IMG/VR virus record: IMGVR_UViG_3300037117_000011
Coordinates: 1-39,745 of that record
DNA length: 39,745 nt
DNA from: a virus
Strand: one strand, 5' to 3'
The notes below the pieces were generated by a model that had not been told where the DNA came from, did no database searches, and was given only the letters and a program-made list of their open reading frames with translations. This document shows positions 2,636 to 39,413 of the stretch, one piece after another; position 1 is the stretch's first letter, and each line of letters starts with the position of its first letter. Made by a program: the position numbers and the translations under genes.

Positions 2636-3418
2636 TTAAAATCCTGTTGTATCTGTACCGGGCGACATCGGGTTTCCACCACCTGCACTGGGCATGTCAC
2701 CATTACCACCATTCATCCCACCCATCACTTTGCCAGCGAGACCTTTACCTATGCCGCCAGTAAATGCAGAAATACCACCCATGACTGCACCTTCAACAGG
2801 TTTAACCCACCAGTTAGATGCGGCATCTGCTGCCTGAGCATTCGCCATGTTTGCCGACACACCCTTCTGGGCAGCATCATTCATACCGGGCATGTTCCCG
2901 AATACACTAGGAGCCTTACTAAGTGCCGCGCCCGCTTCGTTGAAATTAATATTTCCTTGTGCGTAATTCTTCTGCTGAATCTCATTGAGTGCGTTTGCTG
3001 TGTTAGCTGCGCCCGCTTCAGCAACTTGAGCGCGTTCTCCTGCGCCGATGCCGGACGCGTTCGGTACGTTTCCCCCACCCGCTCCTGCTTGTTTGCCAGC
3101 GACTGATGCCATGGCGAATCGTGTTTGGTTGGCCCCGTTTGTAATTGCTGAGGCGTTCATAGCACTCTGTTGCTGGGCACTAAATCCTTGCTGGCTGGGC
3201 CCGGCGGCGAGTAACTGGCTATATGCGTTCTTCATTGTATTGAACACGCCATTGTCCGCCCCAAAAACTGAACTCGCTTGGCTCAACATAGAATTTGTGA
3301 AATTTGTTTGCTGGGCGGCAGCGGCGTGTTCAGCTCCATGGGTACCACAACCCCCCGAAACAGGGTGTTTCGTTACAAAGTCGAGAAACTGTTGGTCAGT
3401 CATATTAGACGTTTTCAT
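2636..3418 (-). CDS. Ala/Gly-rich ejection-like virion protein
   Basis: ATG 3418 is preferred over an upstream in-frame codon because AAGGATCAACCAG precedes it; the protein then has 260 residues and starts MKTSNMTDQQ. It is rich in Ala, Gly, Asn and Gln. A Gly-rich hydrophobic segment (EGAVMGGISAFTGGIGKGLA, around residues 205-225) could insert in membranes, and the C-terminus is a Gly/Asn/Met/Pro tail. There are no Cys-based motifs except in the N-terminal GGCGTHG. It lies just before the 768-residue ejection-like gene and its start overlaps the end of an HNH gene by 14 bases. T7 gp14-type proteins are similarly small, Ala-rich and precede the larger ejection proteins, which is the basis for the guess. 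Confidence 0.75.
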   Translation of the reverse strand: MKTSNMTDQQFLDFVTKHPVSGGCGTHGAEHAAAAQQTNFTNSMLSQASSVFGADNGVFNTMKNAYSQLLAAGPSQQGFSAQQQSAMNASAITNGANQTRFAMASVAGKQAGAGGGNVPNASGIGAGERAQVAEAGAANTANALNEIQQKNYAQGNINFNEAGAALSKAPSVFGNMPGMNDAAQKGVSANMANAQAADAASNWWVKPVEGAVMGGISAFTGGIGKGLAGKVMGGMNGGNGDMPSAGGGNPMSPGTDTTGF

Positions 3419-3800
3419 CTGGTTGATCCTTATATTTCCGCAGATATGCCGCAGCAACATCTACTAATTCGGGGCTGTCTTGTAACAATCCCAATGCAGA
3501 GTTACATTGAGAACACAGGAGGCCACGAGGTTTCCCAGTGATATGATCGTGGTCATGATTAGGATTAGGCATATGCCGTTTGCAGATGGCACAAAGCCCA
3601 TTCTGGGCCTTACTAATCGCATCATGCAACGCGGGGGTCCATCCATGTTGACGACGGGCACGCATACAGATTTTGCATAGGTTATACCCTTTGGCGTTTA
3701 CGTAAGTGTTTTCAGAAGTATAATCGTGTCCTTGTGGACATCTTGTTCGATTTAATTTCCTGTTATGAAGTGCGGTACGCTTATAGATTCCTCTAGGCAT
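3405..3800 (-). CDS. HNH homing-type endonuclease, endonuclease VII-like (copy 1)
   Basis: The protein has 131 residues. An N-terminal zinc finger is formed by CPQGHDYTSENTYV and CKICMRARR. The C-terminal half holds the endonuclease VII/HNH core: CAICKR, then DHDHITGKPRGLLC and CNSALG, with paired Cys for zinc and the DHxH metal-binding nuclease motif. Such free-standing phage genes typically nick or cut DNA at gene junctions and spread by homing. The gene overlaps the GNAT-like gene upstream by 8 bases and the next gene by 14, so it sits exactly in a junction. No good ribosome site precedes ATG 3800; translation probably couples to the upstream gene. Confidence 0.88.
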   Translation of the reverse strand: MPRGIYKRTALHNRKLNRTRCPQGHDYTSENTYVNAKGYNLCKICMRARRQHGWTPALHDAISKAQNGLCAICKRHMPNPNHDHDHITGKPRGLLCSQCNSALGLLQDSPELVDVAAAYLRKYKDQPDENV

Positions 3801-4175: not shown

Positions 4176-5231
4176 CTAGTGTACAACTGCTACAAGATCA
4201 GGGTTTCCACCTGTGCGATAAAGTTCGCCCGCGAATAACCCACCTGAAATTGCGGCGGCATTGTTTGCGAAGATCAAAAGATTTAGACTAGTAATTGCAG
4301 GGAGTCCTGCGTTCACCCAATGAGTCCCGTTGTATACGAGTACATCGCCCGGAATCAAACTAACTATACTTACAGGTATGCCTTCAATCTCGTTCGCATT
4401 TATAATCCCCGTTCCGCTATAAGTCAAAGTCGAACCTGATCCTATTACGAGACTCGTAGAGCCCGTTGGAGAAGTGATGGTGGTTGCACTAGAGATCGTT
4501 ACTGCGCCATTGTTCGCAAGTGCTCTACCATTGAACGTTCCGCCATTCAAAGTGATAGAAGCCGTCGCTAAAATATTTCCTATAAAAGTGTTCGCTCCGG
4601 CGAATGTCGCGGAACTGCCGACGAGGAACACGACGTTATCCACAGTCGCCCCGCCAGTCAAGGTGACGATTGAACCCGCTGCGACCGTCAGAGTCGAGGC
4701 TGTCTTAATGACATACGTACCCGCACCGTTAAGGGTGAGGGTCCCACCATTCAGAGTCGCTGCTCCGCTGGCAAAACTATAATTTCCGGGTGTAAGCGTC
4801 TGTGTGTCCAAAGCCGAGGGAATCGTAGTGGTCGAAAGGCTTGCGTAATACGCAATTGCAGCAGCTAACGCTACTTGTGCTGCGCCCGCGTCTGCATTAT
4901 CTATCTGGGATGGGGACACGAATGTTCCGGGCGGAAAGCCTGTCTCTGTGCCAGTAGGAGACGACCCAATATTCCCACCCGAGATCACAGTGCTTCCGGT
5001 GTTGGTAATACCCGAATACGCTAGAATCGCATAAGGGGATGCCGCTCCCAGACGGGCTGCGACGGGTGAAGAAGAACCTACGTTAGTACCTGATGTTATA
5101 TTGCTAAAGCTAACGCTGGTCCCGCCTACTGCCAAATACGCGGATATGTTTCCGCTGCCATCGGTCTGCCAACTAACGTTTACACCACCGGAAGGCGCTA
5201 CGGGAATCGTGTCGTTGAAATTTGTACTCAA
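4176..5231 (-). CDS. Virion fibre-like protein with internal DUF3494 ice-binding-like beta-solenoid (copy 1)
   Basis: The protein has 351 residues. Residues 1-60 look like a phage fibre start (VSWQTDGSGNISAYLAVGG). Residues about 61-256 are a DUF3494 (ice-binding protein) domain: LGAASPYAILAYSGITNTGS, GGNIGSSPTG, DNADAGAAQVALAAAIAYY, LTPGNYSF, and the hallmark GNILATASITLNGGTFNGRA. Residues about 257-351 return to phage-type sequence (GDVLVYNGTHWVNAG) with a conserved-looking end, LYRTGGNPDLVAVVH. Known DUF3494 proteins are bacterial or algal beta-solenoids that bind ice or act in surface adhesion; here there is no signal peptide, which fits a virion part. Ice binding itself is not shown by the sequence. 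Confidence 0.85.
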   Translation of the reverse strand: MSTNFNDTIPVAPSGGVNVSWQTDGSGNISAYLAVGGTSVSFSNITSGTNVGSSSPVAARLGAASPYAILAYSGITNTGSTVISGGNIGSSPTGTETGFPPGTFVSPSQIDNADAGAAQVALAAAIAYYASLSTTTIPSALDTQTLTPGNYSFASGAATLNGGTLTLNGAGTYVIKTASTLTVAAGSIVTLTGGATVDNVVFLVGSSATFAGANTFIGNILATASITLNGGTFNGRALANNGAVTISSATTITSPTGSTSLVIGSGSTLTYSGTGIINANEIEGIPVSIVSLIPGDVLVYNGTHWVNAGLPAITSLNLLIFANNAAAISGGLFAGELYRTGGNPDLVAVVH

Positions 5232-5241
5232 GGTATTTCTC

Positions 5242-5574
5242 CTAATCTCCTACCAAAGTACCGTTTACTCTTACCCCTAGGAATGAATCCGTTGAGTAAT
5301 TTATTACTAAAGCTGTGTCACAGAGAATCAAATAATCATCGCTCACACCTACACCGTTTATTTCAATTGTGTTGTTCTCGTTACCACCACCCGGCAACCA
5401 TTCTATGTCGCCATTTGCCGCGACGTATGTCGGCACCGCTCCGTCTGTAAGTGGGTTGGGTGCGATAGGTATATTCTGTATCCCGATTACTTCCACAATT
5501 ACGTCGCCTGATTCAGCCGAGATGTCGCCTCGAAGCGGAAACAGGCTGGAAGGATAAGTTTCTTGGTTTGGCAT
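5242..5574 (-). CDS. Small fibre-associated phage protein of unknown function
   Basis: The protein has 110 residues. The start codon shares its A with the stop of the upstream gene (TAATG), so the two are translationally coupled. The sequence is acidic and beta-rich, with GDISAESGDVIVEVIG, an Ala-Asn-Gly-rich centre (TYVAANGDIEWLPGGGN) and the ending GVRVNGTLVGD. This composition resembles small tail-fibre or collar proteins of phages that carry repeated 'GDI..SGDV' strands. No family is recognised. Its place between a structural protein and an ice-binding-like fibre protein supports a virion role. Confidence 0.65.
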   Translation of the reverse strand: MPNQETYPSSLFPLRGDISAESGDVIVEVIGIQNIPIAPNPLTDGAVPTYVAANGDIEWLPGGGNENNTIEINGVGVSDDYLILCDTALVINYSTDSFLGVRVNGTLVGD

Positions 5575-6275
5575 TAGGTAGTCTCCAAGGGCAGGTATGT
5601 AATAGTCACCGTCACCGGAGCCGCACTCGTCGGCGCTATGTTAAACACTGTAACATATATCGTAGAGGTCTGCGGTATATCCTGATTTGCTCCTACACGA
5701 TTTTGCCAACCCCACAAAAACGGCGAAGCGTCAAGGGTCACGCATGTAAGTATGTTCTGCGTAATCTCTGGTGGAACCGGATTCCCTGTAGGTCGTGGTG
5801 CATCGAACATCTGGGCTTGCTGCGTTCCATATATGCGTACTTCGCAAGGCCCATTCGCGGTAATCGAAAGCAACTGGAATGACTTTGAAAGTTGTAGCGA
5901 TGTTAGGTAATTGCTGCCAGATGGCAGTAAATTAGTAGTAAACACCGCCGTCTTAGATGCTAGCGTTATCGTGGCGGAAGAAGAAGATGAACTGGAAGAT
6001 GATTTCGCATTTAGAGTTGCATCTATAAGTGCAGTTGTGGCTGAGGCGCTAATACCTGCTTTTTGTTGAGGACTAGGCCAGATTCTAATTTTGGGGCTGT
6101 TACTCTCGAACAATCGAACCGAATCAGGGTCCGCGTTGAATGGTGGCAAAATGAAACGCATGTTGTTCGTTGGTGGAGTAAGAACTGGCTGCACGGATAC
6201 GATCATCGGTGCGGCAGGTAACGGAGCATAGTTAGGGAGTTTCGCATTAGCAATCGCGTCTTTAAGTGATGGCAT
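5574..6275 (-). CDS. Virion-type protein of unknown function with poly-serine hinge
   Basis: I start it at ATG 6275 (MPSLKDAIAN), which overlaps the stop of the HNH gene as TAATG, the same coupling seen at its own end; an in-frame ATG at 6287 is the alternative. The protein has 233 residues. Residues about 25-75 are Pro-rich (PLPAAPMIVSVQPVLTPP). A run of nine Ser near residues 90-99 looks like a flexible hinge. The second half is beta-rich, with SKSFQLLSITANGPCEVRIYG and a C-terminal VTVTITYLP strand, as in small jelly-roll or fibre domains. Function unknown; context suggests a tail or head fibre part. Confidence 0.72.
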   Translation of the reverse strand: MPSLKDAIANAKLPNYAPLPAAPMIVSVQPVLTPPTNNMRFILPPFNADPDSVRLFESNSPKIRIWPSPQQKAGISASATTALIDATLNAKSSSSSSSSSATITLASKTAVFTTNLLPSGSNYLTSLQLSKSFQLLSITANGPCEVRIYGTQQAQMFDAPRPTGNPVPPEITQNILTCVTLDASPFLWGWQNRVGANQDIPQTSTIYVTVFNIAPTSAAPVTVTITYLPLETT

Positions 6276-6700
6276 TAAGAACCCCATTTTTCGAGATATG
6301 CCACAAGGCTTTTCGCAATGAGGGCATCTTCTTGTATCATCCCGACGGCGACATTGCAGTTGTTACAAAGCAAATCCCGCACTTCGTTCGTCTCGTGATT
6401 GTGGTCAACGCGAGGAGCCTTCATAAGCCGCTTGCATATCGCACATTGATGATTTTGCTTTTCGACTTTGGCGAGAAATTCTTCGTTTGTGATTCCGTAA
6501 TACCTCTCTCGGTCGTAACCCGGATGCTTGTCGTACCATGCCTTTCGGTAGGAGCGCATCTTCACCGGATTCTCCTTATGGGAGTCATGAGCATACTTAC
6601 TGCGACACGTCTTGCACCCTCTGAAACCCTTGGGGGACAAGTACAAATTGTCCCCCGAAAGAGGATGGCCGTGCTTACATTGTGCTTGGCATGGTCTCAT
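6275..6700 (-). CDS. HNH homing-type endonuclease, endonuclease VII-like (copy 2)
   Basis: The protein has 141 residues. The N-terminal zinc finger is CKHGHPLSGDNLYL...CKTCRSK. The core is CAICKRLMKAPRVDHNHETN, followed by LLCNNCNVAVG, giving the two Cys pairs and the DHxH motif of the endonuclease VII/HNH family. ATG 6700 follows AAAGGATTT. The stop overlaps the start of the next virion gene as TAATG. The gene lies directly after the giant 1638-residue structural gene, so it occupies a junction, as the other three HNH genes do. In the last Cys-x-x-Cys region 'RDLLC' replaces the more usual 'RGLLC'; otherwise the motif is intact. Confidence 0.88.
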   Translation of the reverse strand: MRPCQAQCKHGHPLSGDNLYLSPKGFRGCKTCRSKYAHDSHKENPVKMRSYRKAWYDKHPGYDRERYYGITNEEFLAKVEKQNHQCAICKRLMKAPRVDHNHETNEVRDLLCNNCNVAVGMIQEDALIAKSLVAYLEKWGS

Positions 6701-6725: not shown

Positions 6726-9700
6726 CTACTGCTCTTGAGTATATGATCCGAAGATTGTGAACGTTTGCAGTTCATTGATCGCGGCCTCTGCGGGCCACTG
6801 CACCATTATCTGCAGATCAGTTACCGCTGCTGATTCCGTCGGCATGTCCGACAAATAGAATCGCTGCGAGTACCATGTTCGGCTGGGCTTCAACTCGGGA
6901 GGATCGTTCACCCACTTCTTCAATATTTCGAAGCTGCCTTTGTAATACGGCAGACCATCATCTAGAAGCAAGCCAAGGATAGCAGGCGAGCCCGTGAGGA
7001 CAGATTTGAGTGTTATGAACTGAATGTTAGCAACCTGACCGGGTTGCGCCAGTACGTAGGAACCGAAAACTGCATAAGCAGGATACGGTGTCCCTACGAT
7101 TCCAGTTCCCGGCACAGAAGTCAGAGTAGGAAAGGTAATCGTTTCGGTCGTAGACATAGTAACGAACCCTGCGGTTGTCGCTAGTGCACGGCCATTAAGA
7201 TTCCCACCGCCGAGTGTGATGCCCGAATACGCCATGATCGTTCCGACCATGTTAGATTGGATACCATTCCACACAGAAGTAAATGCAGAACCACACACCC
7301 AATAAACGTTACCCGCTTGTGCACCGTTCGCAAGGATTACAGAGGCTCCGCTTTCGAGCGTGATCGTAGAACCTGCGACGAATACAAAGACAGCTTGGGA
7401 ATTCCCCTGAGCATCTAGTGTAATGCTCGTAGGTATATCAAGACTCGACGAACCTTTATAAACACCAGCAGTATAAGTGTGGTTGTTAACACCGTTACCG
7501 GAAGTGCTTAGGTTACCTAGACCGCTTAGAGTAGCTGGCAAACCGCTGTAATAAACAATTGCGGCGGTAAGATCAGTCTGCGCTAATATAGCCGAAGCGT
7601 CTGCATAATGGAACACTCCCGGTGATTCTAAAACACTGGGAGGAAAATTGGTTATCGACGTAGCATTAGATGGATATATACCAATGTTTCCGCCTGCGAC
7701 AGTAGAACCTGCACCTGCGCTGCCTGTTATAGCAGAGCCCGCTAGAATGTCAAAGTTAGCGGCAGTTCCCAAATAAGTTGCTTGGGGTGTTGCAGGAGTT
7801 GACACAACTGTCCCGCCATCGGTGCTAGAAAGAACATCGCGATTCAGAATATAAACTCCTGAACCTCGCGGTCCAACTAACAAGTGATGGACGCCGGGGG
7901 AAGTCTCGACAGATTTAATTGCACCACATCCACCTGTTTCCGCCAGAGTCGCAAAAGGACTCCATATCATACCTGCGGGTTCGGGTGTAGGCGTACTGAT
8001 GAGTCGAAACCAACCATTCGTTCCATCTGCTAGGAACCATCCCATGTCTTGTCCGCTTACATAGTTTGCGACGTAGACGTTAGCTGGGTACCAGTTTTGG
8101 CCGGGTGTGCCATTTCTCATGGACAGTTGATCTGCGATTGGGACACTTTCTACTCCACCACCGACGCCGGGGCTTAGTACTAAGAATTGGCTGTCGGTAG
8201 TAAAGAAACCAATAGTAGGTCCGTTCCAATCCAAAGCGTTGTAACTGCTTAATCCAACACCCGGAATATAGGGGACACTCGGAAGAATGTTTCCGGCCCC
8301 GTCGTCAGGAATCTTGTAGACATCCGAAACCGTAAAGACAAGCATGCCAATTGCGGTAGGCACGAGTCTCTTCACGAGAGAGGGCATCTTATCATAGTTG
8401 TTAGGGGCGAATCCATTAATCCCATTACCAATTGGATCAAGGGGTCCGCTGGTCCAAAACACCGTGTTACCGATGCTGTACCAGAGGCGGTTGAGATGAT
8501 ACGCGAGATTTATCGCACCAGGAAGCGGTGGAGTATTTTCTCCTGCGGCGGGGGCTGGTGCCTGTATATCTAAACCCACATCCGGCGTCATATCTACATA
8601 TCCATAAGTCAAGTACGTTGACAGAGGTATGGTATAAATAGTGTTGCCGTTGCCCGGAATTAACAACTCAGTCGTAAACCCATCAGCAGTGCGGAAGATA
8701 GCCACATAATCCGCCTGTGGATCGATTGCCGATTTAATGAGACCTGCACCGGGAGCGAACGTAATTGTCCCGTTGACTAAGGGTCCGGTCGAGGCACTAA
8801 CTGGTCCGATGTTGGATACAGTGTTGTCTAATGTGTTCACGAGGGCGATAGCGTAAATCGCACCCTGAGCACTAGTCAGCGTGATCTTTCCAGCCTGATT
8901 TGGCTGGATAGGGATAGCACCTTCATTTATCCACACCAAACTTCCGTTGTCTAACGTAAGTGAGTTGAGCCCTCCCGTATTCCACTTAGGAGCGGTAGTT
9001 CCGGAGTATCCGGTACTGATTGGTCCTTCTTCATTTCCGTTTGAATCAATGATGTTTGTGTCGGGTAGAGTATAGTTCTTGCTTGCAAACCACCCGAAGT
9101 TTACAACAGGTCCGATGTTAACCCACGTGTACTGTGAGCCATCATGGTTTATGTCCGCAGTTCCGAATACTATCTCAGACCGCGCTGCATTCCACGTCGC
9201 GCCTACAGTCGTAAAGATGTTCCACGCAGGCGGACCCGCGAGTGTCTTTGTGTTGTCCGGTATAATAGCTATGTTATAACCATTGCAGGTCATAATCATC
9301 TGGCCGGGGGTTCCGCCGCCACCATTTCCTTGTGAGTTAGAATAGTCAATCTCGAATCTTACTGGTCCCGCATTTGCAAAAGACCAAGTTGCCACATCTG
9401 TGAAAGGTGTGTTCGCGGGAGAGTTAGCCGAAGTATTGTTATTGTTTCCGCACAAGTTCACCTGAGTCGCGCCACCCGCATTACCAAACCCTAAAATTGC
9501 CGTCTGGATATGGGCAGTAATCAACGCGGTCTCTGTGAAATTCCCAGTTACCTTAAAATTATTAGCACTCTGATCATCGAATGAGAAGAACGCACCATCA
9601 TCGTGCAATAGGGAGAATGTATACAGTCCCGGTGCGGGGATAAACATCGTACCTGTAATAGCCCACTCGCCTGCATTATTTCCACAAACGTTTATACCTG

Positions 9701-11642
9701 CACCAATCTGCTCGCCTGCACCGTTGACTGGGTAAGCGTTCATTATTGTTGAGCCGTTAACTGGGATGCCCGTTGACCATAACAGAGATGGAACCTGAGA
9801 ATTAAAGGTAGAGCCCGCCCCCGGATAATACTGGTTGAATGCACCCTTCGCATTACCCGGTGCATCCGTGTGGTAATAATATTCCAGCACGGGGTCATTC
9901 GGATTGGTCGACGAATACAACCATGGCTGGGGCGTCGGGTAGTTATTCTGCTGATTCTTCTGTAACTGAAAATAACTAATCGTTCCCGCTGTTGGAGTTG
10001 CTTGGATGTAATCGTTCTGGAATTGATGCCTTCCCGGTGCCCATGCCAACGAAGCAGGCGTCTGGATGCATACCCACACTGCCGCCCCATCAATTTGCGT
10101 TGTAGGCGGATGCGGACTCAGCACGTTCTCCACACCATACCCTTCGTCTGGGAGTAGTGCATAATTTCCGAAAGTGAACGCCGCTTGGAATGTCGTAGTA
10201 GACAATCCTGTGGCACTAACGGTTAGATTCAAATTGCTGGTGCTAAAATTCAAGAAGGACGCAGGACCAAGGAACTGCAGCGTTACTATATCGCCTGCTG
10301 TGAGAGTCTGCGCGGATGTAGTGAATGACGCTACGTTCGATGTGATCGCGACAGATAGGATGTCGAATTTCTTCTGCGGTGTCGGAGACGCAGGCCATGT
10401 TGGTTGAGTTGGCCCAACTAATCCGGGGGTAGAAATCTGCCACAGATAACCACTGACATTATCCTGATAAATGCTACCGAGGGAATAGTAAGTATTCGCT
10501 TGCCATCCGACTGATGTTCCTTGCGCGGTGTATGTCGGTGCAGACGTAGGCGCAGCTATGCCCCAGTTTTCTACAGGGTTACCCCTGTTGACCCATACTG
10601 CGTTACCATCCACAGTTATGCTACCTTGAAAGTTATTAGCGGCTGAGGGTACGGTCGTACCCCATACAGGTACAGAACCACCCGTAGTCACAATGCTGGT
10701 GATGACAACATCACCTATCGCATCCGTGATTCCGCTAGTCACACCGTTTGCAACCTGTAAAATCGCGGTCATTCCGGATACAGTGAAATTCGTTGTGGAA
10801 ACGAATGCGAAAACCATTGTCGTCCCACCCGTATACTGTTGGGTCAGAGCGAGCGTATTTCCGTTGAGAACGTCTGCGGCTCCCGTGCATTCCCAAAAAG
10901 TAAAATACGTACCTACGGCTTGATCTCCTCCTGCCGGAGTTGCATCATATCCAGCACCGAGGGGTGCCGAGAGAGTAACGGTTAACACGTCCGCAGTGAC
11001 CGAGACTGCAGTGACTTGCGCGATCTGCACACCTATTAGTTGCTGGATATTATTGTTCGGATCAAGTAGGTACGTGTCCATGAAAGGATACGCATCGGTG
11101 TTGAGGACAGATGAATCATTTGCCGTGTTGCGGACAAAGAGAGACTGTAACCATTTCTTCTGGTCAACCCCATTTCCAAAATATAATTCAGAACCGACTT
11201 CTTGCATGAAGTCTTGACCCGCCCCATTAGTTTTCGACCACACAAGGCTCTTGGTATTCGCATTTGTATCCGCGTACAAAGCTGTCGTTGTATCAACCAT
11301 TACATCGATCTGTTCAATTACAGTACCCCATATGTCGCTCAGGGACTTGCTGTATCTGAATTCATCGAAAGAGAGAATGTCTGTGTATGTATTGGTAGAG
11401 TCGTAAACGGGATTTCCCGGGCGACGAGAAAGGGTAAGTCTATTGGTAACTTCAACGTTAGACCCTGCGATCATTGCATCGCCAGCAGGTCCATAATATT
11501 TTTCAGATATTCGGCCCGTCGCCGCGTCACGCAATGGAGAGCGATTTGTCCAGAGTCCCGTGGTGTTGCGACCTACATATAGCGGGGTCGCCTTCACTTG
11601 TTTATCGGATTGGGCACCGTTGATCTGCAATGCGTTTGACAT
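6726..11642 (-). CDS. Giant nozzle/tail-tip-like virion protein with PA14-like and DUF3494 ice-binding-like domains
   Basis: The protein has 1638 residues. Residues 1-200 hold a conserved-looking start (NRSPLRDAATG, EVTNRLTLSRRPGNPVY) like the start of T7 gp12-type nozzle proteins. Residues about 209-300 and 425-502 are two short beta-sandwich-like modules, and W/DG-rich repeats (DGNAVWVNRG, DGAAVWV, DNGSLVWINEG) recur. Residues about 645-795 look like a PA14 domain (GLYTFSLLHDDGAFFSFDDQ), a fold often used for sugar binding. Residues about 900-1285 resemble a beta-propeller-type body. Residues about 1290-1505 are a DUF3494 domain (SGITLGGGNLNGRALATTAG). After it the host protein resumes (YAVFGSYVLAQPGQVANIQF). 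It lies downstream of the adaptor-like gene, as gp12 does in T7. The nozzle role is inferred. Confidence 0.82.
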   Translation of the reverse strand: MSNALQINGAQSDKQVKATPLYVGRNTTGLWTNRSPLRDAATGRISEKYYGPAGDAMIAGSNVEVTNRLTLSRRPGNPVYDSTNTYTDILSFDEFRYSKSLSDIWGTVIEQIDVMVDTTTALYADTNANTKSLVWSKTNGAGQDFMQEVGSELYFGNGVDQKKWLQSLFVRNTANDSSVLNTDAYPFMDTYLLDPNNNIQQLIGVQIAQVTAVSVTADVLTVTLSAPLGAGYDATPAGGDQAVGTYFTFWECTGAADVLNGNTLALTQQYTGGTTMVFAFVSTTNFTVSGMTAILQVANGVTSGITDAIGDVVITSIVTTGGSVPVWGTTVPSAANNFQGSITVDGNAVWVNRGNPVENWGIAAPTSAPTYTAQGTSVGWQANTYYSLGSIYQDNVSGYLWQISTPGLVGPTQPTWPASPTPQKKFDILSVAITSNVASFTTSAQTLTAGDIVTLQFLGPASFLNFSTSNLNLTVSATGLSTTTFQAAFTFGNYALLPDEGYGVENVLSPHPPTTQIDGAAVWVCIQTPASLAWAPGRHQFQNDYIQATPTAGTISYFQLQKNQQNNYPTPQPWLYSSTNPNDPVLEYYYHTDAPGNAKGAFNQYYPGAGSTFNSQVPSLLWSTGIPVNGSTIMNAYPVNGAGEQIGAGINVCGNNAGEWAITGTMFIPAPGLYTFSLLHDDGAFFSFDDQSANNFKVTGNFTETALITAHIQTAILGFGNAGGATQVNLCGNNNNTSANSPANTPFTDVATWSFANAGPVRFEIDYSNSQGNGGGGTPGQMIMTCNGYNIAIIPDNTKTLAGPPAWNIFTTVGATWNAARSEIVFGTADINHDGSQYTWVNIGPVVNFGWFASKNYTLPDTNIIDSNGNEEGPISTGYSGTTAPKWNTGGLNSLTLDNGSLVWINEGAIPIQPNQAGKITLTSAQGAIYAIALVNTLDNTVSNIGPVSASTGPLVNGTITFAPGAGLIKSAIDPQADYVAIFRTADGFTTELLIPGNGNTIYTIPLSTYLTYGYVDMTPDVGLDIQAPAPAAGENTPPLPGAINLAYHLNRLWYSIGNTVFWTSGPLDPIGNGINGFAPNNYDKMPSLVKRLVPTAIGMLVFTVSDVYKIPDDGAGNILPSVPYIPGVGLSSYNALDWNGPTIGFFTTDSQFLVLSPGVGGGVESVPIADQLSMRNGTPGQNWYPANVYVANYVSGQDMGWFLADGTNGWFRLISTPTPEPAGMIWSPFATLAETGGCGAIKSVETSPGVHHLLVGPRGSGVYILNRDVLSSTDGGTVVSTPATPQATYLGTAANFDILAGSAITGSAGAGSTVAGGNIGIYPSNATSITNFPPSVLESPGVFHYADASAILAQTDLTAAIVYYSGLPATLSGLGNLSTSGNGVNNHTYTAGVYKGSSSLDIPTSITLDAQGNSQAVFVFVAGSTITLESGASVILANGAQAGNVYWVCGSAFTSVWNGIQSNMVGTIMAYSGITLGGGNLNGRALATTAGFVTMSTTETITFPTLTSVPGTGIVGTPYPAYAVFGSYVLAQPGQVANIQFITLKSVLTGSPAILGLLLDDGLPYYKGSFEILKKWVNDPPELKPSRTWYSQRFYLSDMPTESAAVTDLQIMVQWPAEAAINELQTFTIFGSYTQEQ

Positions 11643-13105: not shown

Positions 13106-14050
13106 TTACACGCCTCGCGCTTGCATTCCTTGGGCGCTTTTTTGGGGGCCCATTCCAAGTACTGCGTTCCAATTGTTCAGGAAAATATTTTTCTCTTCTT
13201 CGGTCAGTCCTTCTGCTCGTGCGAGAAGTCCCGCAGTAAATTTCGAATTGGCGATCTGGAATCTGGCGTCATCCGCAAACGCCCAAATCAAAGCTAAAAA
13301 ACCCCAACTGTAGATGTACTGCATAAAGTCCGGCATCGGAGCCCACGTCTGGTTGATGCTGGTAATTCGAGGGGCGGCGAGTTGTACGTGTACGCTAACG
13401 GGGTACACCGCATTCGGTGATGGCATGACTCGGAAAGTCACATCACCATTTGCATCCTCCGCTTGCGGGCCTACGAAAGTGGGCCGGGCATCTCGGGAAT
13501 CGAGAGCGAGGTCATTCTGAACTTTCAGTTCTACCCAATTCGGCGGGGTACGAGTCACATCTAATACAGATGCGTGCTCAATATGAGAGAACGCAGGCGC
13601 TGCAATCGTGTAATCCTGAGTAGTGCCGTTCGTAAGGGTTCCTGTGTCCACGTGTGAAGCATATGTCTGAGTGGTGACTGCGGCAGTGATCTGTATAGGA
13701 CTCGCAGTGAGCACTATGAGAAGCTGGCCGTTGAGAAAGGTTGCGTTCGCTACGGCTGACGGGATTACAAGATTCCCTACGGCAAAAGTGTTCGCGGTTG
13801 TTATCGTGGCGATTCCAGCGGTCACAGAGACGTTAGTAATAGGTGCCGAGTTCGCAATAGGAGAAGTCGTGAAACTCAATTCCTGTGTGTTCCACCAAAA
13901 TTCGAAGGGTGGCGCTAAAATCACATCCATGACCATTTGCGCGGAAGTGAGTGCTGGTTCGAGATTATTTCCTACCGCTGATAGACGATTGAACGATAAT
14001 TTCTTCGCCCACTCCATTGTCTGCGATATCGTAACTGTTGAGATTGCCAT
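13106..14050 (-). CDS. Head-tail adaptor / tail-tubular-A-like protein with inserted beta module
   Basis: The protein has 314 residues, with ATG 14050 after AAGGAATCTCCCCG. The N-terminal helix (TMEWAKKLSFNRLSAVGNN) and the C-terminal helices (LALIWAFADDARFQIANSKF) are like those of podovirus adaptor proteins of the gp11 type, where a helical bundle joins portal to nozzle. Residues about 71-141 are a short beta-rich module (ITNVSVTAGIATITTANTFA) resembling two modules in the 1638-residue protein, so it is probably an insertion. The ending is Gln/Met-rich. Order (connector-like, this, fibre-like, giant nozzle-like) supports the call. The first 86 bases overlap the end of an HNH gene. Confidence 0.62.
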   Translation of the reverse strand: MAISTVTISQTMEWAKKLSFNRLSAVGNNLEPALTSAQMVMDVILAPPFEFWWNTQELSFTTSPIANSAPITNVSVTAGIATITTANTFAVGNLVIPSAVANATFLNGQLLIVLTASPIQITAAVTTQTYASHVDTGTLTNGTTQDYTIAAPAFSHIEHASVLDVTRTPPNWVELKVQNDLALDSRDARPTFVGPQAEDANGDVTFRVMPSPNAVYPVSVHVQLAAPRITSINQTWAPMPDFMQYIYSWGFLALIWAFADDARFQIANSKFTAGLLARAEGLTEEEKNIFLNNWNAVLGMGPQKSAQGMQARGV

Positions 14051-14456
14051 CGGGGAGATTCCTTTTGTGCTTGGCGAGATACGCCAAAACCTGATCCATA
14101 TAGGGCTCTAATTTTCCGAGAGCCAAATTACATGCGGCACACAAGATTCCACGGTGAGTTCCCTCTTGTCCGTGCTCGTGGTCGATATGCCAAACGTCGT
14201 TGAAACCCTTACCCCACGTCAGTCCAGTGCGTCCGCAGATCGCGCATGCATCGCCTTGGGATGCGAGCAATTTGTTACGCCCATCGATAGTAAGACCGTA
14301 TAGTTTAATGCTCTGCCATTCGTTCTTACGCAGTCTGTGGGCTTCTGGGTCACGCTTACGGGCTTCGGCAGCGCGATCCCTACAGCATTGTACGCATTGC
14401 CCACCTTTTGAATAACCAACGTTGCCGCGACCGTACTTGCAAGGATAAATTGTCAT
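13965..14456 (-). CDS. HNH homing-type endonuclease, endonuclease VII-like (copy 3)
   Basis: ATG 14456 (MTIYPCKYGR) is chosen because GTAGGAGATACT precedes it; the protein has 163 residues. The N-terminal finger is CKYGRGNVGYSKGGQCVQCC. The core is CAICGRTGL, then HIDHEHGQEGTHRGILC and CNLALG. The last 28 residues, from about 136, are read from DNA that also encodes the start of the adaptor-like gene in another frame (86-base overlap), so this tail is probably newly acquired on insertion. The ribosome site lies in an imperfect hairpin (14457-14480), which may hold translation down until conditions change. Confidence 0.87.
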   Translation of the reverse strand: MTIYPCKYGRGNVGYSKGGQCVQCCRDRAAEARKRDPEAHRLRKNEWQSIKLYGLTIDGRNKLLASQGDACAICGRTGLTWGKGFNDVWHIDHEHGQEGTHRGILCAACNLALGKLEPYMDQVLAYLAKHKRNLPDGNLNSYDIADNGVGEEIIVQSSISGRK

Positions 14457-14481
14457 AGTATCTCCTACAATTAGGATACTA
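14457..14481 (-). promoter_or_regulatory. Hairpin covering the ribosome site of HNH copy 3
   Basis: On the minus-strand RNA the arm AGGATACT (14480-14473) pairs with AGTATC-CCT read from the other arm (14466-14457), leaving a loop of six bases and one bulge. The AGGAG ribosome site is in the second arm. Hairpins that hide ribosome sites control some phage T4 homing endonuclease genes; the same function here is inferred from geometry only. Confidence 0.5.
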
Positions 14482-14509
14482 CTAAAACTCATATATGTCA
14501 AGAGGATAG

Positions 14510-15661
14510 TTACGAACTGAAACCAAACAGTAACTTTCGACACATTGCCCAGAGTCCGAAATAACCTGTAAATGATTGATTCGAAAGGACAAAATTCCAT
14601 GGCCCATACGGCTGCGCTGGTGAAATCGGATTGTATGAATATCCAGAATCCATCACGTTCGTCTGGGGCACGAAACCCCAATCGTCTTCTTGGTTAGCGC
14701 CAAACATCATCGCGTTGGTAAGCGCCTGCTGCCAGAGTTTGTATTCAATCTCGAACTTCGCCCGGACTTCTTTGAGCGGGGAACGACGATAGCACTGGGC
14801 AAAAAATCCCTGCTTGAAGAAAGTGTAGAAGTCATCTGGAATCGGGTCGAGCATAGTACTAAGCGACTTGATGAATGGCACCTTCATTTGACCGACTGGC
14901 TGGATGAACCACACCGGGCCTGTTTGACAAGGCAGTGGGTTGATTCGGTAACCTTGGCCTTTCGGATTGACTGCGGTCCATTGGACTGTTCCATCCGTCA
15001 CAACGGTAGAAACAATGCTCTGATTCTGCACGGTTGGATAGGTTGGATTTTGATTCACAAGAAAAGGGTTAGTATTGCCACAGGTTCCGTACCGGGTAAG
15101 AGTCCAAAGATTTCCGAAAGCATCTTTGATCGCCGTAGTCGGATTGATGGGCTGCGCGATTGCAGCGCTAGGATCGTTATACACTACGCCAGGGCCGGGT
15201 TGTGATTGCCCGGTCGGAGTCAATTGTGTAGATGCTCCCCACGTGCCCGCCTGCATAGTATCATTCTGCATCCAGCAAATGCGAGCATCATTGTTCGTCG
15301 AAAGATTGAAAGTGATCAGGAGGTCTCGCTTTACGATGACCGGATATACAGGCTTTGGGAATTGTGTACTGCTATAATTTACAGCCGTGCAACTCTCCAA
15401 CCAGCCTACCGCTACCTGATTCGGAATGAAATAATCCTGTTGCCAACTGTTAATGAAGAACGGAGTCTCTACGGCACGATTCCACTTCCAGTTGAAGGGC
15501 TGGCCGTTAGGTCCGCCTGCGAGCATGTTCTGCATTACGTCGTTCGCGATAGATAGCGCAGGGGCGTCGGAGAATCCGCCAGCCGGGATGGCAGGTGCGA
15601 GTTCACCATTACTGCGAGCGTCATCCACCAAATCCTGTAGCTGTATCGAACTGTTTCCCAT
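14510..15661 (-). CDS. Connector-like virion protein
   Basis: ATG 15661 (MGNSSIQLQD) follows TTAAGGAGATTT; the protein has 383 residues. The N-terminal third has LSIANDVMQNMLAGGPNGQP and a Trp-rich stretch (NWKWNRAVETPFFINSW). Residues about 155-235 form a Gly/Asn-rich beta segment ending in TDGTVQWTAVNPKG, akin to the DG..W repeats of the 1638-residue protein. The C-terminal part has DPIPDDFYTFFKQGFFAQCY and a helical stretch KFEIEYKLWQQALTNAM. Two features, a 'P.F...' turn followed by an aromatic helix and a late helix, recall the adaptor-like protein downstream, so the two may be distant relatives. A head-completion or head-tail connector role is inferred from order. Confidence 0.65.
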   Translation of the reverse strand: MGNSSIQLQDLVDDARSNGELAPAIPAGGFSDAPALSIANDVMQNMLAGGPNGQPFNWKWNRAVETPFFINSWQQDYFIPNQVAVGWLESCTAVNYSSTQFPKPVYPVIVKRDLLITFNLSTNNDARICWMQNDTMQAGTWGASTQLTPTGQSQPGPGVVYNDPSAAIAQPINPTTAIKDAFGNLWTLTRYGTCGNTNPFLVNQNPTYPTVQNQSIVSTVVTDGTVQWTAVNPKGQGYRINPLPCQTGPVWFIQPVGQMKVPFIKSLSTMLDPIPDDFYTFFKQGFFAQCYRRSPLKEVRAKFEIEYKLWQQALTNAMMFGANQEDDWGFVPQTNVMDSGYSYNPISPAQPYGPWNFVLSNQSFTGYFGLWAMCRKLLFGFSS

Positions 15662-15959: not shown

Positions 15960-16607
15960 TTACCTCAGGTTCGAATTCTTGACCGCCTGTCGGTAGTCAT
16001 TCGTCGCGTCCACCCACTGTTCAGACTTCTCATCCCACTTGCTAAATTTGCAGATGACGGAGCCCGAGGCGGTGTTATTGGTTTCAAAAGCAACTGCCTT
16101 ACGATATTCCACTTCCGCTGCTGCGAATTTCTCGGGGGAGAATACACCATCCACCGGAGCAACAACCTTACCCTTCGCGCTGAAATAGAAGTTATCCTTG
16201 ACTGGCGGGAGCCACGTCTTACCACAACGGAGACAACGAACCCAGAAGTCGCCATTAATCATCTGGTGCTTGATTACAGCGTACTGCGGACTGTTACCGC
16301 CCGTGCTGAGAACTTGCAGGTTGCGCTGAGAAACTACGCCACCTTTCTTATGAGTACAGGCGTTCTGCTTCGCATCGTCTTCACGCTTCTGGGCGGCGAA
16401 CACTTTACCCTGTTGCTCGCGATCCATCGCTTTCTGTTTCTGTTTTGTGACTCGATCCGCGATAGTTCCGCGTTTCTCCTCGATGCTCAACTGTCGTTCT
16501 GTCTTCTGGAGTTCAAGATCGGCCAACTGCGCCCGCTTGATACTCAGTTCAATCGCTGCGATCTCATCTGCAGCATTGGAATAAACCTTCTGCTTTTGTT
16601 CTTCCAT
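15960..16607 (-). CDS. Coiled-coil protein with zinc-ribbon-like motif
   Basis: The protein has 215 residues, ATG 16607 after CTAGGAGGAAGT. Residues 1-80 are strongly charged and helical with heptad character (AADEIAAIELSIKRAQLADL, then a Lys/Gln/Glu-rich stretch), so a coiled coil is likely. Residues about 83-130 contain ACTHKKGG and, further on, FWVRCLRCGKTW, giving Cys/His and CxxC pairs as in a zinc ribbon. The C-terminal part is mixed. The combination recalls phage proteins of unknown role found beside head genes; I do not recognise a named family. It overlaps nothing and the 54-residue gene starts two bases after its stop. Confidence 0.75.
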   Translation of the reverse strand: MEEQKQKVYSNAADEIAAIELSIKRAQLADLELQKTERQLSIEEKRGTIADRVTKQKQKAMDREQQGKVFAAQKREDDAKQNACTHKKGGVVSQRNLQVLSTGGNSPQYAVIKHQMINGDFWVRCLRCGKTWLPPVKDNFYFSAKGKVVAPVDGVFSPEKFAAAEVEYRKAVAFETNNTASGSVICKFSKWDEKSEQWVDATNDYRQAVKNSNLR

Positions 16608-17755: not shown

Positions 17756-18322
17756 TTACGGGATTACGTTCACCAACACAATCGCGTACAATCGCATTAT
17801 CGGTTGGCCTTGTGTACCAGCAATAACGCTGTCAAACGTCGGGAAATGAATCCCGACACCTGTCTGGCCAACGTGGGAAGCAGTGATGAGACCGCTTGCC
17901 GATACGCTAGCAATCAGGGCAGAGTATGCAACCTGATTAGCGAGTAAACCATTGCCACTGATTGCATTGCTAGGATTGTAGAATGCACCCGTTGGATAAT
18001 CAGACTTGTACGTCGGTGAATTGACCGGGGCTGTATAAGTGGTGTTAGCCACATCCTTTATGATGGTTGTAAGTTGGCAAGTGTTACTATATGCCACACC
18101 ATTGACTGTCTTACTGCCTAGACTCAGTGTAAGATTATACTGAGCAACGGGGTGCTTAGCAGAAGACACTGCGCCGATACCTTGACCTGTCTGGAACCCG
18201 GTCGTACCCTGTGTGGCCCCTGCGCCACCGCTGTTATTAACAACGTTGGTGCCTGTTACTTGGACATAAGCTGCAACTGCGAGCCCGTCCGTAGGATTGT
18301 GCTGTGGATTTGGATTTGCCAT
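17756..18322 (-). CDS. Candidate capsid decoration protein, Ig-like
   Basis: The protein has 188 residues, ATG 18322 after AAAAAGGAATAATCT. The start (DGLAVAAYVQVTGTNVV) matches the start of the 394-residue upstream protein (SGLGVAAAVKLTGTGVV), and the ends also agree in pattern (GQTGVGIHFPTFD versus GQCVVEFQIPTFL; LYAIVLVNV versus AHLIVTVTG). The central part, SASGLITASHVGQTGVGI, follows the pattern of bacterial Ig-like (BIG2-type) strands. The two genes follow the major capsid gene, as decoration or head-fibre genes often do. It is therefore probably the plain version of a decoration protein whose paralogue carries an inserted domain. Confidence 0.7.
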   Translation of the reverse strand: MANPNPQHNPTDGLAVAAYVQVTGTNVVNNSGGAGATQGTTGFQTGQGIGAVSSAKHPVAQYNLTLSLGSKTVNGVAYSNTCQLTTIIKDVANTTYTAPVNSPTYKSDYPTGAFYNPSNAISGNGLLANQVAYSALIASVSASGLITASHVGQTGVGIHFPTFDSVIAGTQGQPIMRLYAIVLVNVIP

Positions 18323-18354: not shown

Positions 18355-19539
18355 CTACGATGTACCACCTGTAACCGTGACGATTAGATGCGCGAAAATC
18401 GAATCAATCGGAGTTTCATCCATAACTGTTGGGGTTCCGTCGTCCCCATAAATCGTTCCAGTCGTATTCAGGAAAGTCGGAATTTGGAATTCAACTACGC
18501 ACTGTCCCGCTACACGTCCTCGAACCGTAAATGGGTTACCATCGCTGTCATCAAGAGAAGCGGGGGCCGCAAATGTGTTGCTATATTTATTTGCGTTAGA
18601 TGGCCGATACCATGCAGGATTAGACGAAGGGAAATTGTTATACACAATCGCGTTCCATCCAACCTGAGAAGCCCCTGTTGGTACCGTAATAACTTCGGCA
18701 GCCACTATAGTCACTGCACCTGAACTAGTTACGATGCCCGCGAGTGCGCGACCATTCAAAGTGCCGCCGCCTAGGGTGATGCTCGTGTTGGCCAGAATGT
18801 TTCCATTCATCAAGGCTCCGGGGCCAACAGATGTAAAGGAACTTCCTGCGATCCAGAACACGTTACTTGCCTGTGCTCCGTTCTTCAGAGTTACTGTGCC
18901 TGCGATTGCCTGCGTAATAGTCGATGCGGTCGCGTAGAACACGAAGATTGCATTCGGGTTCCCCTGAGCATCCAAAGTAACCGGAGTGGTAATTGCGATG
19001 GAACTAGGGCTTACATACTTACCAGCGAACCAAGTCCCATTAGGTGCGCCTGCGCTGCCTTGTATACCGCTCGATCCGATGTCGGCAGTGGTAAGTGATG
19101 CAGTGGTAGGCAGCGCAAGCAGAGCGTTATACTCGATTAGAGCCGCAGCCAAAGCAGCCTGCGCGTCTGCGTTGTCCACAGTCGCTGGGGGTGGGTTGAA
19201 ACCTGTGATAGATGTGGTTGGAAATGATCCAATGACTCCTCCTGCGATGGACGTACTTCCGGTGTTCGTAATTCCTGCGGCTGCAAGGATCGCATAATTC
19301 GCGGCGGAACCTAGTGCCAGATTCCCTGCGGACGATCCGACAGTTGCGCCTGCATCATCGATTGCCGAAGATGTCACGACGACGGACCCGCCAATAGGAA
19401 CGTTTACGGTGTACTGGGAGACACCACGCGTGCCCGCTACGGGGGTGCGTGTTTGCACTACGCCCGTTCCAGTCAATTTTACTGCTGCTGCAACGCCGAG
19501 ACCGCTTGTAGGAACGCCCCCGACACTTGAGTTACTCAT
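18355..19539 (-). CDS. Candidate capsid decoration protein with internal DUF3494 ice-binding-like domain (copy 2)
   Basis: The protein has 394 residues, ATG 19539 after GAAAAGGAAGTAT. Residues 1-73 and about 289-394 match the pattern of the 188-residue paralogue downstream. Residues about 74-288 are a DUF3494 ice-binding-type solenoid: LGSAANYAILAAAGITNTGS, GGVIGSFP, DNADAQAALAAALIEY, LDAQGNPNAIFVF, LKNGAQASNVFWIAGSSFTS and GNILANTSITLGGGTLNGRA. Removal of this block would leave a protein about the size of the paralogue, so the domain is an insertion. There is no signal peptide. Position just after the capsid gene suggests display on the head surface. Confidence 0.85.
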   Translation of the reverse strand: MSNSSVGGVPTSGLGVAAAVKLTGTGVVQTRTPVAGTRGVSQYTVNVPIGGSVVVTSSAIDDAGATVGSSAGNLALGSAANYAILAAAGITNTGSTSIAGGVIGSFPTTSITGFNPPPATVDNADAQAALAAALIEYNALLALPTTASLTTADIGSSGIQGSAGAPNGTWFAGKYVSPSSIAITTPVTLDAQGNPNAIFVFYATASTITQAIAGTVTLKNGAQASNVFWIAGSSFTSVGPGALMNGNILANTSITLGGGTLNGRALAGIVTSSGAVTIVAAEVITVPTGASQVGWNAIVYNNFPSSNPAWYRPSNANKYSNTFAAPASLDDSDGNPFTVRGRVAGQCVVEFQIPTFLNTTGTIYGDDGTPTVMDETPIDSIFAHLIVTVTGGTS

Positions 19540-19620: not shown

Positions 19621-20400
19621 TTAATCTTCTGCTGCTCGTAACAAATACTCAGCAGCTTTCTTCAAAATCTCAGGGTCGTCTTGAAAATGACCCAAACCTT
19701 TGTTACAACCTTGATGGAGATACCCTCTTATATATCCTGTCCTATGACAGTGGTCTAAAGTGGCTCCGTCCGAGGTATTACCTGCTCGAACCATAGATTT
19801 TCCGCATATAGCGCAATCACCTTTTTGGGTATTCCACATATCTAAGGCTTGATGGGGGTAGGAAACTCTAGCGGCTTCGCCATCAGCTTCTCTGCACCGA
19901 GTACCAACCCAGCAAGAATATTGGTCTCTTAAATGATTCCATTTATCCGCTGTGTGTTTGATTACCTTTATGGGAACCTGTCCACACACCGTACAAACAG
20001 CAGTCAATCTTTCGGCATCGATATCAGCCAAAATATGCTTTGCTTGATTGTGGCGAACTTCATTCATCTTTTTACAAGCTGCTCGAACGGCTGCTAGCGC
20101 CTTTTCAGAAGTAACTGGAATACCCTTGCGAGCGTTATTACGTGCTACAAGAGCCGCTTTTTCCGCTTCAGAATGAGAACCTATGAGACGACCTTTGCCA
20201 TATTTGTTACCAACACGAGAACATGATAAGCATTGTTTAGACGTACCGTGAGTCAGAGATTGACCCAACACGTCCGTCACGGTTCCGCAATCGCATAGGC
20301 AGGTCCATAGAATACGATGATGAATATCGGGTTTAGCGCGATGTAAAACTAACCACTTCCCGAATCTACAATTGAACAGATCAACAGCTTGTTTAGGCAT
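19621..20400 (-). CDS. HNH endonuclease, endonuclease VII-like, with zinc-binding N-terminal domain (copy 4)
   Basis: ATG 20400 (MPKQAVDLFNCRFGKWLVLH) follows AATAAGGAGAATATC; the protein has 259 residues. Residues about 8-60 hold a domain found at the start of many phage HNH proteins: CRFGKWLVLHRA, WTCLCDCGTVTDV, SLTHGTSKQCLSC. A basic linker follows, then CTVCGQVPIK, and a C-terminal core with CAICGKSM, ATLDHCHRTGYIRGYLHQGC and NKGLG. In the core DHCH replaces the usual DHxH spelling and is still compatible with metal binding. The gene sits between capsid and decoration genes. Its ribosome site is buried in a perfect 9-bp hairpin (20401-20428). Confidence 0.86.
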   Translation of the reverse strand: MPKQAVDLFNCRFGKWLVLHRAKPDIHHRILWTCLCDCGTVTDVLGQSLTHGTSKQCLSCSRVGNKYGKGRLIGSHSEAEKAALVARNNARKGIPVTSEKALAAVRAACKKMNEVRHNQAKHILADIDAERLTAVCTVCGQVPIKVIKHTADKWNHLRDQYSCWVGTRCREADGEAARVSYPHQALDMWNTQKGDCAICGKSMVRAGNTSDGATLDHCHRTGYIRGYLHQGCNKGLGHFQDDPEILKKAAEYLLRAAED

Positions 20401-20428
20401 GATATTCTCCTTATTTATAGAGAATATC
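20401..20428 (-). promoter_or_regulatory. Perfect hairpin hiding the ribosome site of HNH copy 4
   Basis: GATATTCTC (20401-20409) and GAGAATATC (20420-20428) are exact inverted repeats with a 10-base loop. On the minus-strand RNA the AGGAG ribosome site overlaps the arm next to the ATG. A hairpin in this position should limit translation unless it is opened or transcription starts inside it. The function is inferred. Confidence 0.6.
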
Positions 20429-20477
20429 ATGCCATAAACTAGTTGTCAACACCTAAATTATCTTTATTCTCAATGAC

Positions 20478-21509
20478 TTAGGAGATAGCCGAAGCGGCAT
20501 CTATCTGACGCTGACGGATGGTCGTGTCAGGTCCGAGCGATGTCGTGAAGTGCACACGATAGCTGGTCCATCCGGGGATCAACCCTTCAGGATCGGCAAC
20601 AGTTGGTTCTGCGTTCTGAACAATATTACATTCGATATTTCGCCATTCACCGTCACCGAATCCGGTGTCACCCTTCGCTCCGAGGTTGATGGAGAAGATA
20701 CCATCGCGTCCGAAGATGTAGGTGCGGAGTGCGGTCAGGCCCGTGATGCCGCTGTAGTTCGAGGTCTGAGTGACCAAGTTGGTCTGGTAGAAATCCACGC
20801 CCGTAGTAGGCAACGTGATGACTTCAGTCAGATCAACCGAAACGAGACTGTCCATCTTCATCTGGCCCACCGGGGTGTGCTTCAGAATATCGATTGGGGA
20901 ATCGTTGCTGTTATCAGCAAGGACATCACCCAAAGCGAATGGATGGATCACGCCTGCGAAGCTCTTGGAACCTTCGTCGAACGGTCGAACGCTGCGACCC
21001 GCCAGCGACTGAACGCTGTTACGAATCTGAGAGAGCGACAGAGCGGTGAAGCTCGAAGTGCTTGAAGCGGCCAGTTCGGTCAAAACACTGGCGTCGATGC
21101 TCGATGCACCGTCGGCAGTTGCACGCACGAGTGCGGACAACGATTCGCCAAGACGGTAAGACATTTCACGAGCAACGTTCTCAACGGTGTTGTCAATCGC
21201 GGTAGCGAGAGACAGCGAGGAGAAGTTAGCGTAATCGGCATATTCACCGATAGTCGCCGTGGTAGTCAGAACGGAAACGCTCAGAGACGAACCAACAGTC
21301 CCTTCTGTAGTCTGGTTGACGTTTGCAGCCAACGGAACATACATGAACATCTCGTACTGGTTACCTGAATTCACTGGCAAGTCGAGACGTTCCGAGCATG
21401 CGACGAACGGGGTTTGTGCCTTCAAATTCTCACGGAACTTTTTGTCATAAAACTTTACCGTGGATTGAGGCAGGTTGGAAAGCTGGTTACCCGCTGGGGA
21501 GAAAGCCAT
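20478..21509 (-). CDS. Major capsid protein, N4-gp56-like
   Basis: The protein has 343 residues. The pattern STVKFYDKKFRENLKAQTPF near residues 16-35, then LDLPVNSGNQYEMFMYVPLA, TTEGTVG, and ATIGEYADYANFSSLSLATA, then a helix with ENVAREMSYRLGESL, follows the N4-gp56 (HK97-fold) capsid family. Ala/Ser-rich helices and a late VIHPFALGDVL segment agree. HK97-fold coats assemble the icosahedral head around scaffold. Upstream is the scaffold-like gene, 14 bases away; ATG 21509 has an AGGT site. There is no long N-terminal delta domain, consistent with a separate scaffold. Confidence 0.88.
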   Translation of the reverse strand: MAFSPAGNQLSNLPQSTVKFYDKKFRENLKAQTPFVACSERLDLPVNSGNQYEMFMYVPLAANVNQTTEGTVGSSLSVSVLTTTATIGEYADYANFSSLSLATAIDNTVENVAREMSYRLGESLSALVRATADGASSIDASVLTELAASSTSSFTALSLSQIRNSVQSLAGRSVRPFDEGSKSFAGVIHPFALGDVLADNSNDSPIDILKHTPVGQMKMDSLVSVDLTEVITLPTTGVDFYQTNLVTQTSNYSGITGLTALRTYIFGRDGIFSINLGAKGDTGFGDGEWRNIECNIVQNAEPTVADPEGLIPGWTSYRVHFTTSLGPDTTIRQRQIDAASAIS

Positions 21510-32206: not shown

Positions 32207-32665
32207 CTATCTCTCCCCTACGCTCCAGACATCCCACAGTCGTGCGGGAAATCGATAGTCATCCCCTTTACTCTCCTCGAAAGTCGTCGTAGAGAATATG
32301 AGGATAGTTGTATTTTCCGTCAACGACATCCACCCATTTGCATATCCGGGTGGTACATAAAAAATTCGGGGTTGTTCAGCAGACAGTATGTGCTGATATA
32401 CCGTAGCATTTCGTCCGTCCGGGTGATCCCAATCCTCAACCTTTACGGCAGCAACTATAGCAGAACCACTCGCCATTGTAAAATATTTCGCTTCAATCTT
32501 ATGACCATGCCACGCACGAACAAAGCCCGATTTGTGATTATGCACCACATAATGTCTCTTGACTCCCTCAAAATGGAAATCATTGACGACATCAACACAC
32601 CCTCGATCATCTATATAGCGAACGCCGGGGATCAAATACGGAATTTCTGGAAGAGGCTTGCTCAT
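32207..32665 (-). CDS. RmlC-like cupin, sugar 3,5-epimerase or ketoisomerase
   Basis: ATG 32665 (MSKPLPEIPYL) follows GGAGAAGTACAA; the protein has 152 residues and its ATG overlaps the stop of the upstream gene (ATGA). It has the beta-barrel plan of dTDP-sugar 3,5-epimerases and 3,4-ketoisomerases: GFVRAWHGHKIEAKYF (His residues of the pocket), IFYVPPGYANGWMSL and a DDYRFPARLWDVW end, close to RmlC endings. The substrate would be a dTDP-4-keto-6-deoxy sugar. With the RmlD-like and C-methyltransferase genes nearby it fits deoxysugar synthesis. Confidence 0.75.
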   Translation of the reverse strand: MSKPLPEIPYLIPGVRYIDDRGCVDVVNDFHFEGVKRHYVVHNHKSGFVRAWHGHKIEAKYFTMASGSAIVAAVKVEDWDHPDGRNATVYQHILSAEQPRIFYVPPGYANGWMSLTENTTILIFSTTTFEESKGDDYRFPARLWDVWSVGER

Positions 32666-39411: not shown

Positions 39412-39413
39412 TG

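Follow-up and report, generated by a model that had tools for sequence, protein, structure and literature searches.

Three domains of one family lie in three different proteins of a single phage genome, which raises the question of whether one cassette was copied between these genes or whether each domain came by its own route. The window, IMG/VR virus record IMGVR_UViG_3300037117_000011 analyzed over its whole length of 39,745 bases, encodes phage head and tail genes. Three of its genes, which lie next to the virion genes of this uncultured phage and are termed A, B and C here, each contain one PF11999 domain (Ice_binding, formerly DUF3494), as detected with the Pfam HMM (Table 1). A preliminary description of this DNA had recognized these blocks and proposed exchange of a cassette with its linkers, either within this genome or from a common donor. 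All three blocks are real, with matches of 109, 105 and 117 bits against a curated cut-off of 28.7 that span positions 1–205/206 of the 208 in the model. A, B and C have only the block in common; with the block masked, BLAST against relatives retrieved different proteins for each, and one domain type thus resides in structurally unrelated proteins of one phage. PHROGs gave no match for A, B or C, and tblastn of the A, B-block and L040 proteins against 50,697 phage records gave none either. In the following, W denotes the window phage, W_A, W_B and W_C its DUF3494 blocks and L-numbers the records of relatives. Judged by the portal protein (58% identity), the nearest isolate is Tunturiibacter phage Tunturi_3 (PP885686; L013), a podovirus of a tundra acidobacterium (PMC11924767). 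Tunturi_3 resembles W in its structural gene order, and its gp19 is a homologue of B, but its 97.6 kb hold no PF11999 domain, its B site is empty and its gp7, beside the capsid gene, contains repeats of a different kind.

Table 1. Features of the window, with positions in the 39,745-base stretch.
Feature	Positions	Strand	Remark
Endonuclease VII-type (PF02945) gene, two genes after A	3405..3800	-	
Gene A, 351 aa: tail-fibre-like leader, DUF3494 block, C-terminal module	4176..5231	-	
DUF3494 (PF11999) block of A, residues 60-258	4458..5054	-	Pfam E 3.2e-31
TITSPTG, A residues 251-257, C-edge at domain end	4461..4481	-	
GTNVGSS, A residues 48-54; GTNV part of leader module	5070..5090	-	
Endonuclease VII-type (PF02945) gene, just after gene B	6275..6700	-	
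Gene B, 1638 aa, downstream of adaptor-like gene	6726..11642	-	Homologues: Tunturi_3 gp19, L005, L006, L172, L176, L177
DUF3494 block of B, residues 1290-1508, between SSTDGG and GTPYPAY	7119..7775	-	Pfam E 1.6e-33
TITFPT, B residues 1501-1506, C-edge of B block	7125..7142	-	
Adaptor-like gene	13106..14050	-	Weak SU10_adaptor match, below cut-off
Endonuclease VII-type (PF02945) gene between tail genes, no DUF3494 gene adjoining	13965..14681	-	
188-aa paralogue of gene C without DUF3494, naturally empty version	17756..18322	-	
Gene C, 394 aa: N-terminal module, DUF3494, C-terminal module	18355..19539	-	Next to major capsid gene
DUF3494 block of C, residues 75-290, replaced block	18670..19317	-	Pfam E 5e-30
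VITVPTG, C residues 283-289, C-edge of C block	18673..18693	-	
GATVGSS, C residues 64-70, gene's own sequence	19330..19350	-	Identical in L005_C, L018_C
Endonuclease VII-type (PF02945) gene, between capsid gene and C	19621..20430	-	
Major capsid protein gene	20478..21509	-	PHROG 1357 E 2.7e-15

The case for copying had been built on look-alike strings at the block edges. All five strings are present, although the interval given for the junctions, 4400–5060, covers the A block but leaves GTNVGSS just outside. TITSPTG, VITVPTG and TITFPT all lie inside the end of the DUF3494 domain itself, and an ITxP-like C-edge occurs in 33 of 67 phage blocks. Among the 2211 pairs formed by these 67 blocks, 16–31% match at the C-edge as well as or better than the window's three pairs; over the 30 residues before the block, 7.2% match at least as well as the A/C pair and 20–24% at least as well as the A/B and B/C pairs. 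Such edge similarity is ordinary and weak evidence of copying. VGSS before the block is confined, among the 67, to A and to the C genes of W, L004 and L005, and chance convergence is the simplest reading of this likeness, since the surrounding A and C sequences are unrelated. Co-copying of the linkers is likewise unsupported, as the similar linkers are parts of different host genes: in L005, GATVGSS precedes a different block, while GTNV matches part of the gp18 leader in Tunturi_3. Nor did nucleotide alignment of the three blocks bear the proposal out, as the A/B score was at codon-shuffle level and the A/C and B/C scores exceeded it only modestly (40 versus a maximum of 32, and 51 versus 34), an excess that is what homologous coding sequence would give.

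Block phylogeny gave the same answer. In the main tree (IQ-TREE, 41 phage and seven bacterial domains; a larger set was run with FastTree), W_B pairs with L005_B (support 100/98) inside a seven-block clade (100/99) whose other members are the C-gene blocks of L005, L079, L075, L008 and L009. W_C is sister to the L036 (L036.1) and L065 blocks (100/100), and W_A sits on a long isolated branch without a close relative. This three-place picture stands with three blocks added, and a quick 75-row tree also separates the three blocks and isolates W_A. Forcing A, B and C together cost 168 log units (AU test, p 9e-51), and forcing A and C together cost 37 (p 2e-4); an A–C sister pairing seen in a first small tree had vanished with more sequences. 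The three blocks are thus not mutual closest relatives, and we reject recent copying of one from another. The notion of one cassette recently copied with its linkers among three genes of this genome draws on the similar-looking edges and on the presence of three blocks in one genome, but with block identities of 40% (A–B), 51% (A–C) and 50% (B–C) and the separate tree positions we regard it as extremely improbable. The outcome that the preliminary description had itself named as speaking against its idea, distant tree places with no shared linker, was obtained in part, in that the three blocks lie far apart.

These data indicate that the three blocks reached this phage by separate routes. Exchange of blocks between genes is nevertheless well supported on a wider scale, among related phages. 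The B block is closest to the C-gene blocks of relatives (64–73% identity). Because it is nested among them, we suggest copying of a block from the C gene into B, or in the opposite direction, in an ancestor before W and L005 parted; the direction from C to B is favored, though unproven, as C-gene blocks span more lineages. Holding all C-gene blocks plus B together was rejected only marginally (AU, p 0.035). Thus, while recent copying is refuted, an ancient link between B and C, via the C gene of relatives, stands.

The B homologues display the block as a presence/absence character. L006/L007 have seven residues between SSTDGG and GTPYPAY where B has its block, and the block is also missing from Tunturi_3 gp19 and the B proteins of L175, L176 and L177; filled and empty versions of one site thus occur among close relatives. 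Where present, the block is found at no fewer than four positions: at site 2 in W and L005; about 14 residues upstream, at site 1, in L172, L191, L194 and L205 and separately in L053; at site 0, upstream of GWYRL, in L174; and near residue 88 in L173. The blocks at these positions are non-sister, and both a single clade of them (AU, p 1e-31) and a clade of W_B, L005_B and L172_B (p 9e-7) were rejected. The B block is flanked on either side by a direct repeat, GGGACA, which at six bases is too short to be informative. As an alternative, the blocks might be ancestral in these proteins, lost in some relatives and diverged without exchange. The B-protein tree does not resolve the branching order of W, L005 and L006, which makes a loss in L006 at the B site possible, but the occurrence of non-sister blocks at different positions of one protein argues against this account, as do observations on the C gene.

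Protein C is 92% identical to its L005 counterpart over the first 74 residues and 78% identical over the last 102, whereas the blocks are only 52% identical. The same contrast is seen in the DNA, where identity to L005 falls from 82–97% just upstream to 42–65% across the block, and a W_C+L005_C pairing was rejected (AU, p 2e-5); the domain tree thus conflicts with that of the host protein and its flanks. Together, the flank/block contrast and the rejected pairing indicate that the C block was replaced in an otherwise conserved gene. We suggest that in the C gene of the W lineage, after the exchange with B, the block gave way to a type from other phages while the flanks stayed unchanged. The L075_C block is a mosaic, its first ~80 residues being of the L005 type and residues 85–184 of the W_C type (none of 2000 shuffles was as extreme, with the two types named after the alignment was viewed), which would be explained by homologous recombination inside the block between two types. 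C-block divergence out of step with the flanks and a mosaic block add to the evidence from B, and we consider an ancestral origin with losses alone very improbable.

The C-gene site accepts different modules, since the Tunturi_3 counterpart of C (gp7, 7573–8511) has two NNGTF-type repeats in place of DUF3494, and L035 (3302–4936) and L043 (3284–4909) have an NNGTF-type repeat plus DUF3494 there. Moreover, the C-type gene as a whole can move, as in G020 (the L079 record) its block (26023–26625) and the capsid gene (34778–35806) are about 8 kb apart; in L079 the C-type gene lies upstream of terminase-region genes.

Gene A opens with a TTG start codon, where the relative L006 has ATG at the same place, and its leader is 51% identical over 49 residues to residues 28–76 of Tunturi_3 gp18. 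The A homologues of L006/L007 (107 aa) and L005 (136 aa) are without the block and also lack parts of both linkers. We suggest that the A block was gained on its own, from an unsampled phage donor. The A block was found in one record only, the window, and the sequences are metagenome assemblies, so that the odd block combinations might be thought to stem from contig chimerism. Yet the same C allele recurs in L004, L015 and L016, which are independently assembled contigs with other metagenome numbers, the B block is carried also by the separate contig L004, and the reading frames are open throughout; we give chimerism next to no credence.

If not from one another, the blocks might each have been captured separately from DUF3494 genes of the bacterial hosts, where the family is common (at least 485 candidate loci encoding relatives). 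Against such capture, the sampled phage blocks, L080 excepted, group in a clade separate from the bacterial domains included (the best 80 of the at least 485 candidate loci), with support of 95/92 to 99/96 for the separating branch. In addition, charged residues make up 3.6% of the phage blocks (n=67) versus 8.0% of bacterial DUF3494 domains, while the remainder of the same viral proteins averages 9.1%. Repeated bacterial capture is accordingly quite improbable in our view, and the separate clade and the few charged residues point instead to a pool of blocks circulating among phages. The phage set was gathered by searching for DUF3494 and gives no measure of prevalence.

Taken together, DUF3494 is probably a promiscuous accessory domain of these phages, spliced into several unrelated structural-region proteins and exchanged between phages; at defined sites, some proteins contain the block while their homologues do not. 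Blocks would insert into loops or linkers of these proteins, with the first insertions needing illegitimate recombination; subsequent swapping could proceed by homologous recombination in conserved flanks at co-infection, which would be simplest for the C swap and the L075 mosaic.

Neighboring nuclease genes may assist such swapping by cutting. In a stronger version, Endonuclease VII/HNH-type genes would drive local gene conversion that moves blocks between phages. B and C each have a PF02945 gene next to them and another lies two genes from A, and the one beside C is polymorphic, being absent from the near-identical L004 and L016 and present in L015, which shows that it was recently mobile. 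All three of these contigs carry the same C block, however, so that nuclease presence does not track block type; a fourth PF02945 gene is not beside a DUF3494 gene, and neither a recombination site nor a nuclease target or cleavage site was identified for block exchange. We therefore view nucleases as a driving force with some doubt, as a rather unlikely though tenable addition to the exchange of an accessory domain between phages.

What the block might do on the particle can be approached from its fold and its protein contexts. In the modelled C protein, the block had pLDDT values of mostly 65–87 (residues 144–166 under 50), with a helix at residues 126–141, and the best Foldseek matches to it were all ice-binding proteins (6eio, target TM 0.77, E 2e-10). 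The model shows the β-solenoid with a long α helix; A and B are assigned to it by homology only. The model thus confirms the ice-binding fold in C, with moderate confidence. Known DUF3494 ice-binding proteins (PDB 6eio, 7bwx, 5uyt) match the same family HMM and are ~30% identical to the C block in the structural match (6eio/7bwx), but they are secreted by cells, while the blocks described here lie inside phage structural-region proteins, form their own phage clade and have few charged residues. Not every member of the PF11999 family is known to bind ice.

Judged by the location of their genes and by their homologues, proteins A, B and C are putative virion components. B is a candidate tail nozzle or hub; a sequence search of the PDB with a B profile matched in the ice-binding part only, and the AlphaFold model of a B fragment reached a mean pLDDT of 36. 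Location of these proteins in the structural region, together with the B homologue in a cultured podovirus, suggests that the most likely function is adhesive, with the block facing outward on the virion as a β-solenoid that would bind host-surface or matrix polymers. A published list of adhesive domains in fibrillar adhesins of bacteria includes PF11999, as a binder of ice crystals (PMC8286594). Ice binding by the present blocks is possible. A bolder proposal, that cold-soil or peat phages display a swappable pool of ice-binding domains by which virions attach to ice or another regular solid (mineral, crystalline polysaccharide), seems unlikely to us; if true, virions would be held, protected or concentrated on ice, a virion-borne ice adhesion as distinct from host cryoprotection. 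The system permits a direct test of virion binding to ice or another regular surface.

In a report on Arctic vOTUs, PF11999 genes were classed as auxiliary metabolic genes and taken to serve host cryoprotection (PMC11515562). The family is the same and is again found in viral contigs, but here the domain is an insert inside virion-region proteins. None of the three genes is a free-standing secreted ice-binding gene, the block being internal to multi-module structural-region proteins, and no signal-like start was seen at the N-termini of A, B and C when read by eye. PF11999 matches in viral contigs should thus be checked for a virion protein before they are counted as host-cryoprotection genes.

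Ig-like domains of tailed phages are mobile virion accessory domains. The DUF3494 block resembles them in that one type occurs in unrelated structural proteins, is present or absent in close relatives and is traded between phages, but its fold is a β-solenoid of the ice-binding family and not Ig-like. Promiscuous virion domains as such are already known, and DUF3494 would be a further domain in that role. An ice-binding fold would thereby join the domains traded between phage structural genes; its insertion points, its swaps and a mosaic can be read from the sequences. In the papers searched, we found no report that describes DUF3494 as a mobile domain within structural proteins of phages, which is not proof of novelty.

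Several further observations were made in the window and its relatives. The large phage record G028 (L066 record, 223.5 kb) encodes six PF11999 domains, spread over at least five open frames of up to 2073 aa. At the right end of the window (30677–39441), a cluster of glycosyltransferase-like, sugar-nucleotide and UDP-galactopyranose mutase-like genes, read by eye, is possibly involved in glycosylation of the virion or the host surface. The near-identical contig L004 contains, at 4401–5581, a tandem second copy (97% over 150 aa) of a 215-aa gene found at 15960–16607 in the window. Finally, the capsid gene, intact in the window, is interrupted in relatives (L017:7519–8950, L075:924–2290, L011:6834–7669), and the capsid piece that remains in L017 and L075 has a LAGLIDADG-like ORF (weak PF00961) directly upstream, which suggests mobile introns (or inteins) in the capsid gene of these relatives.
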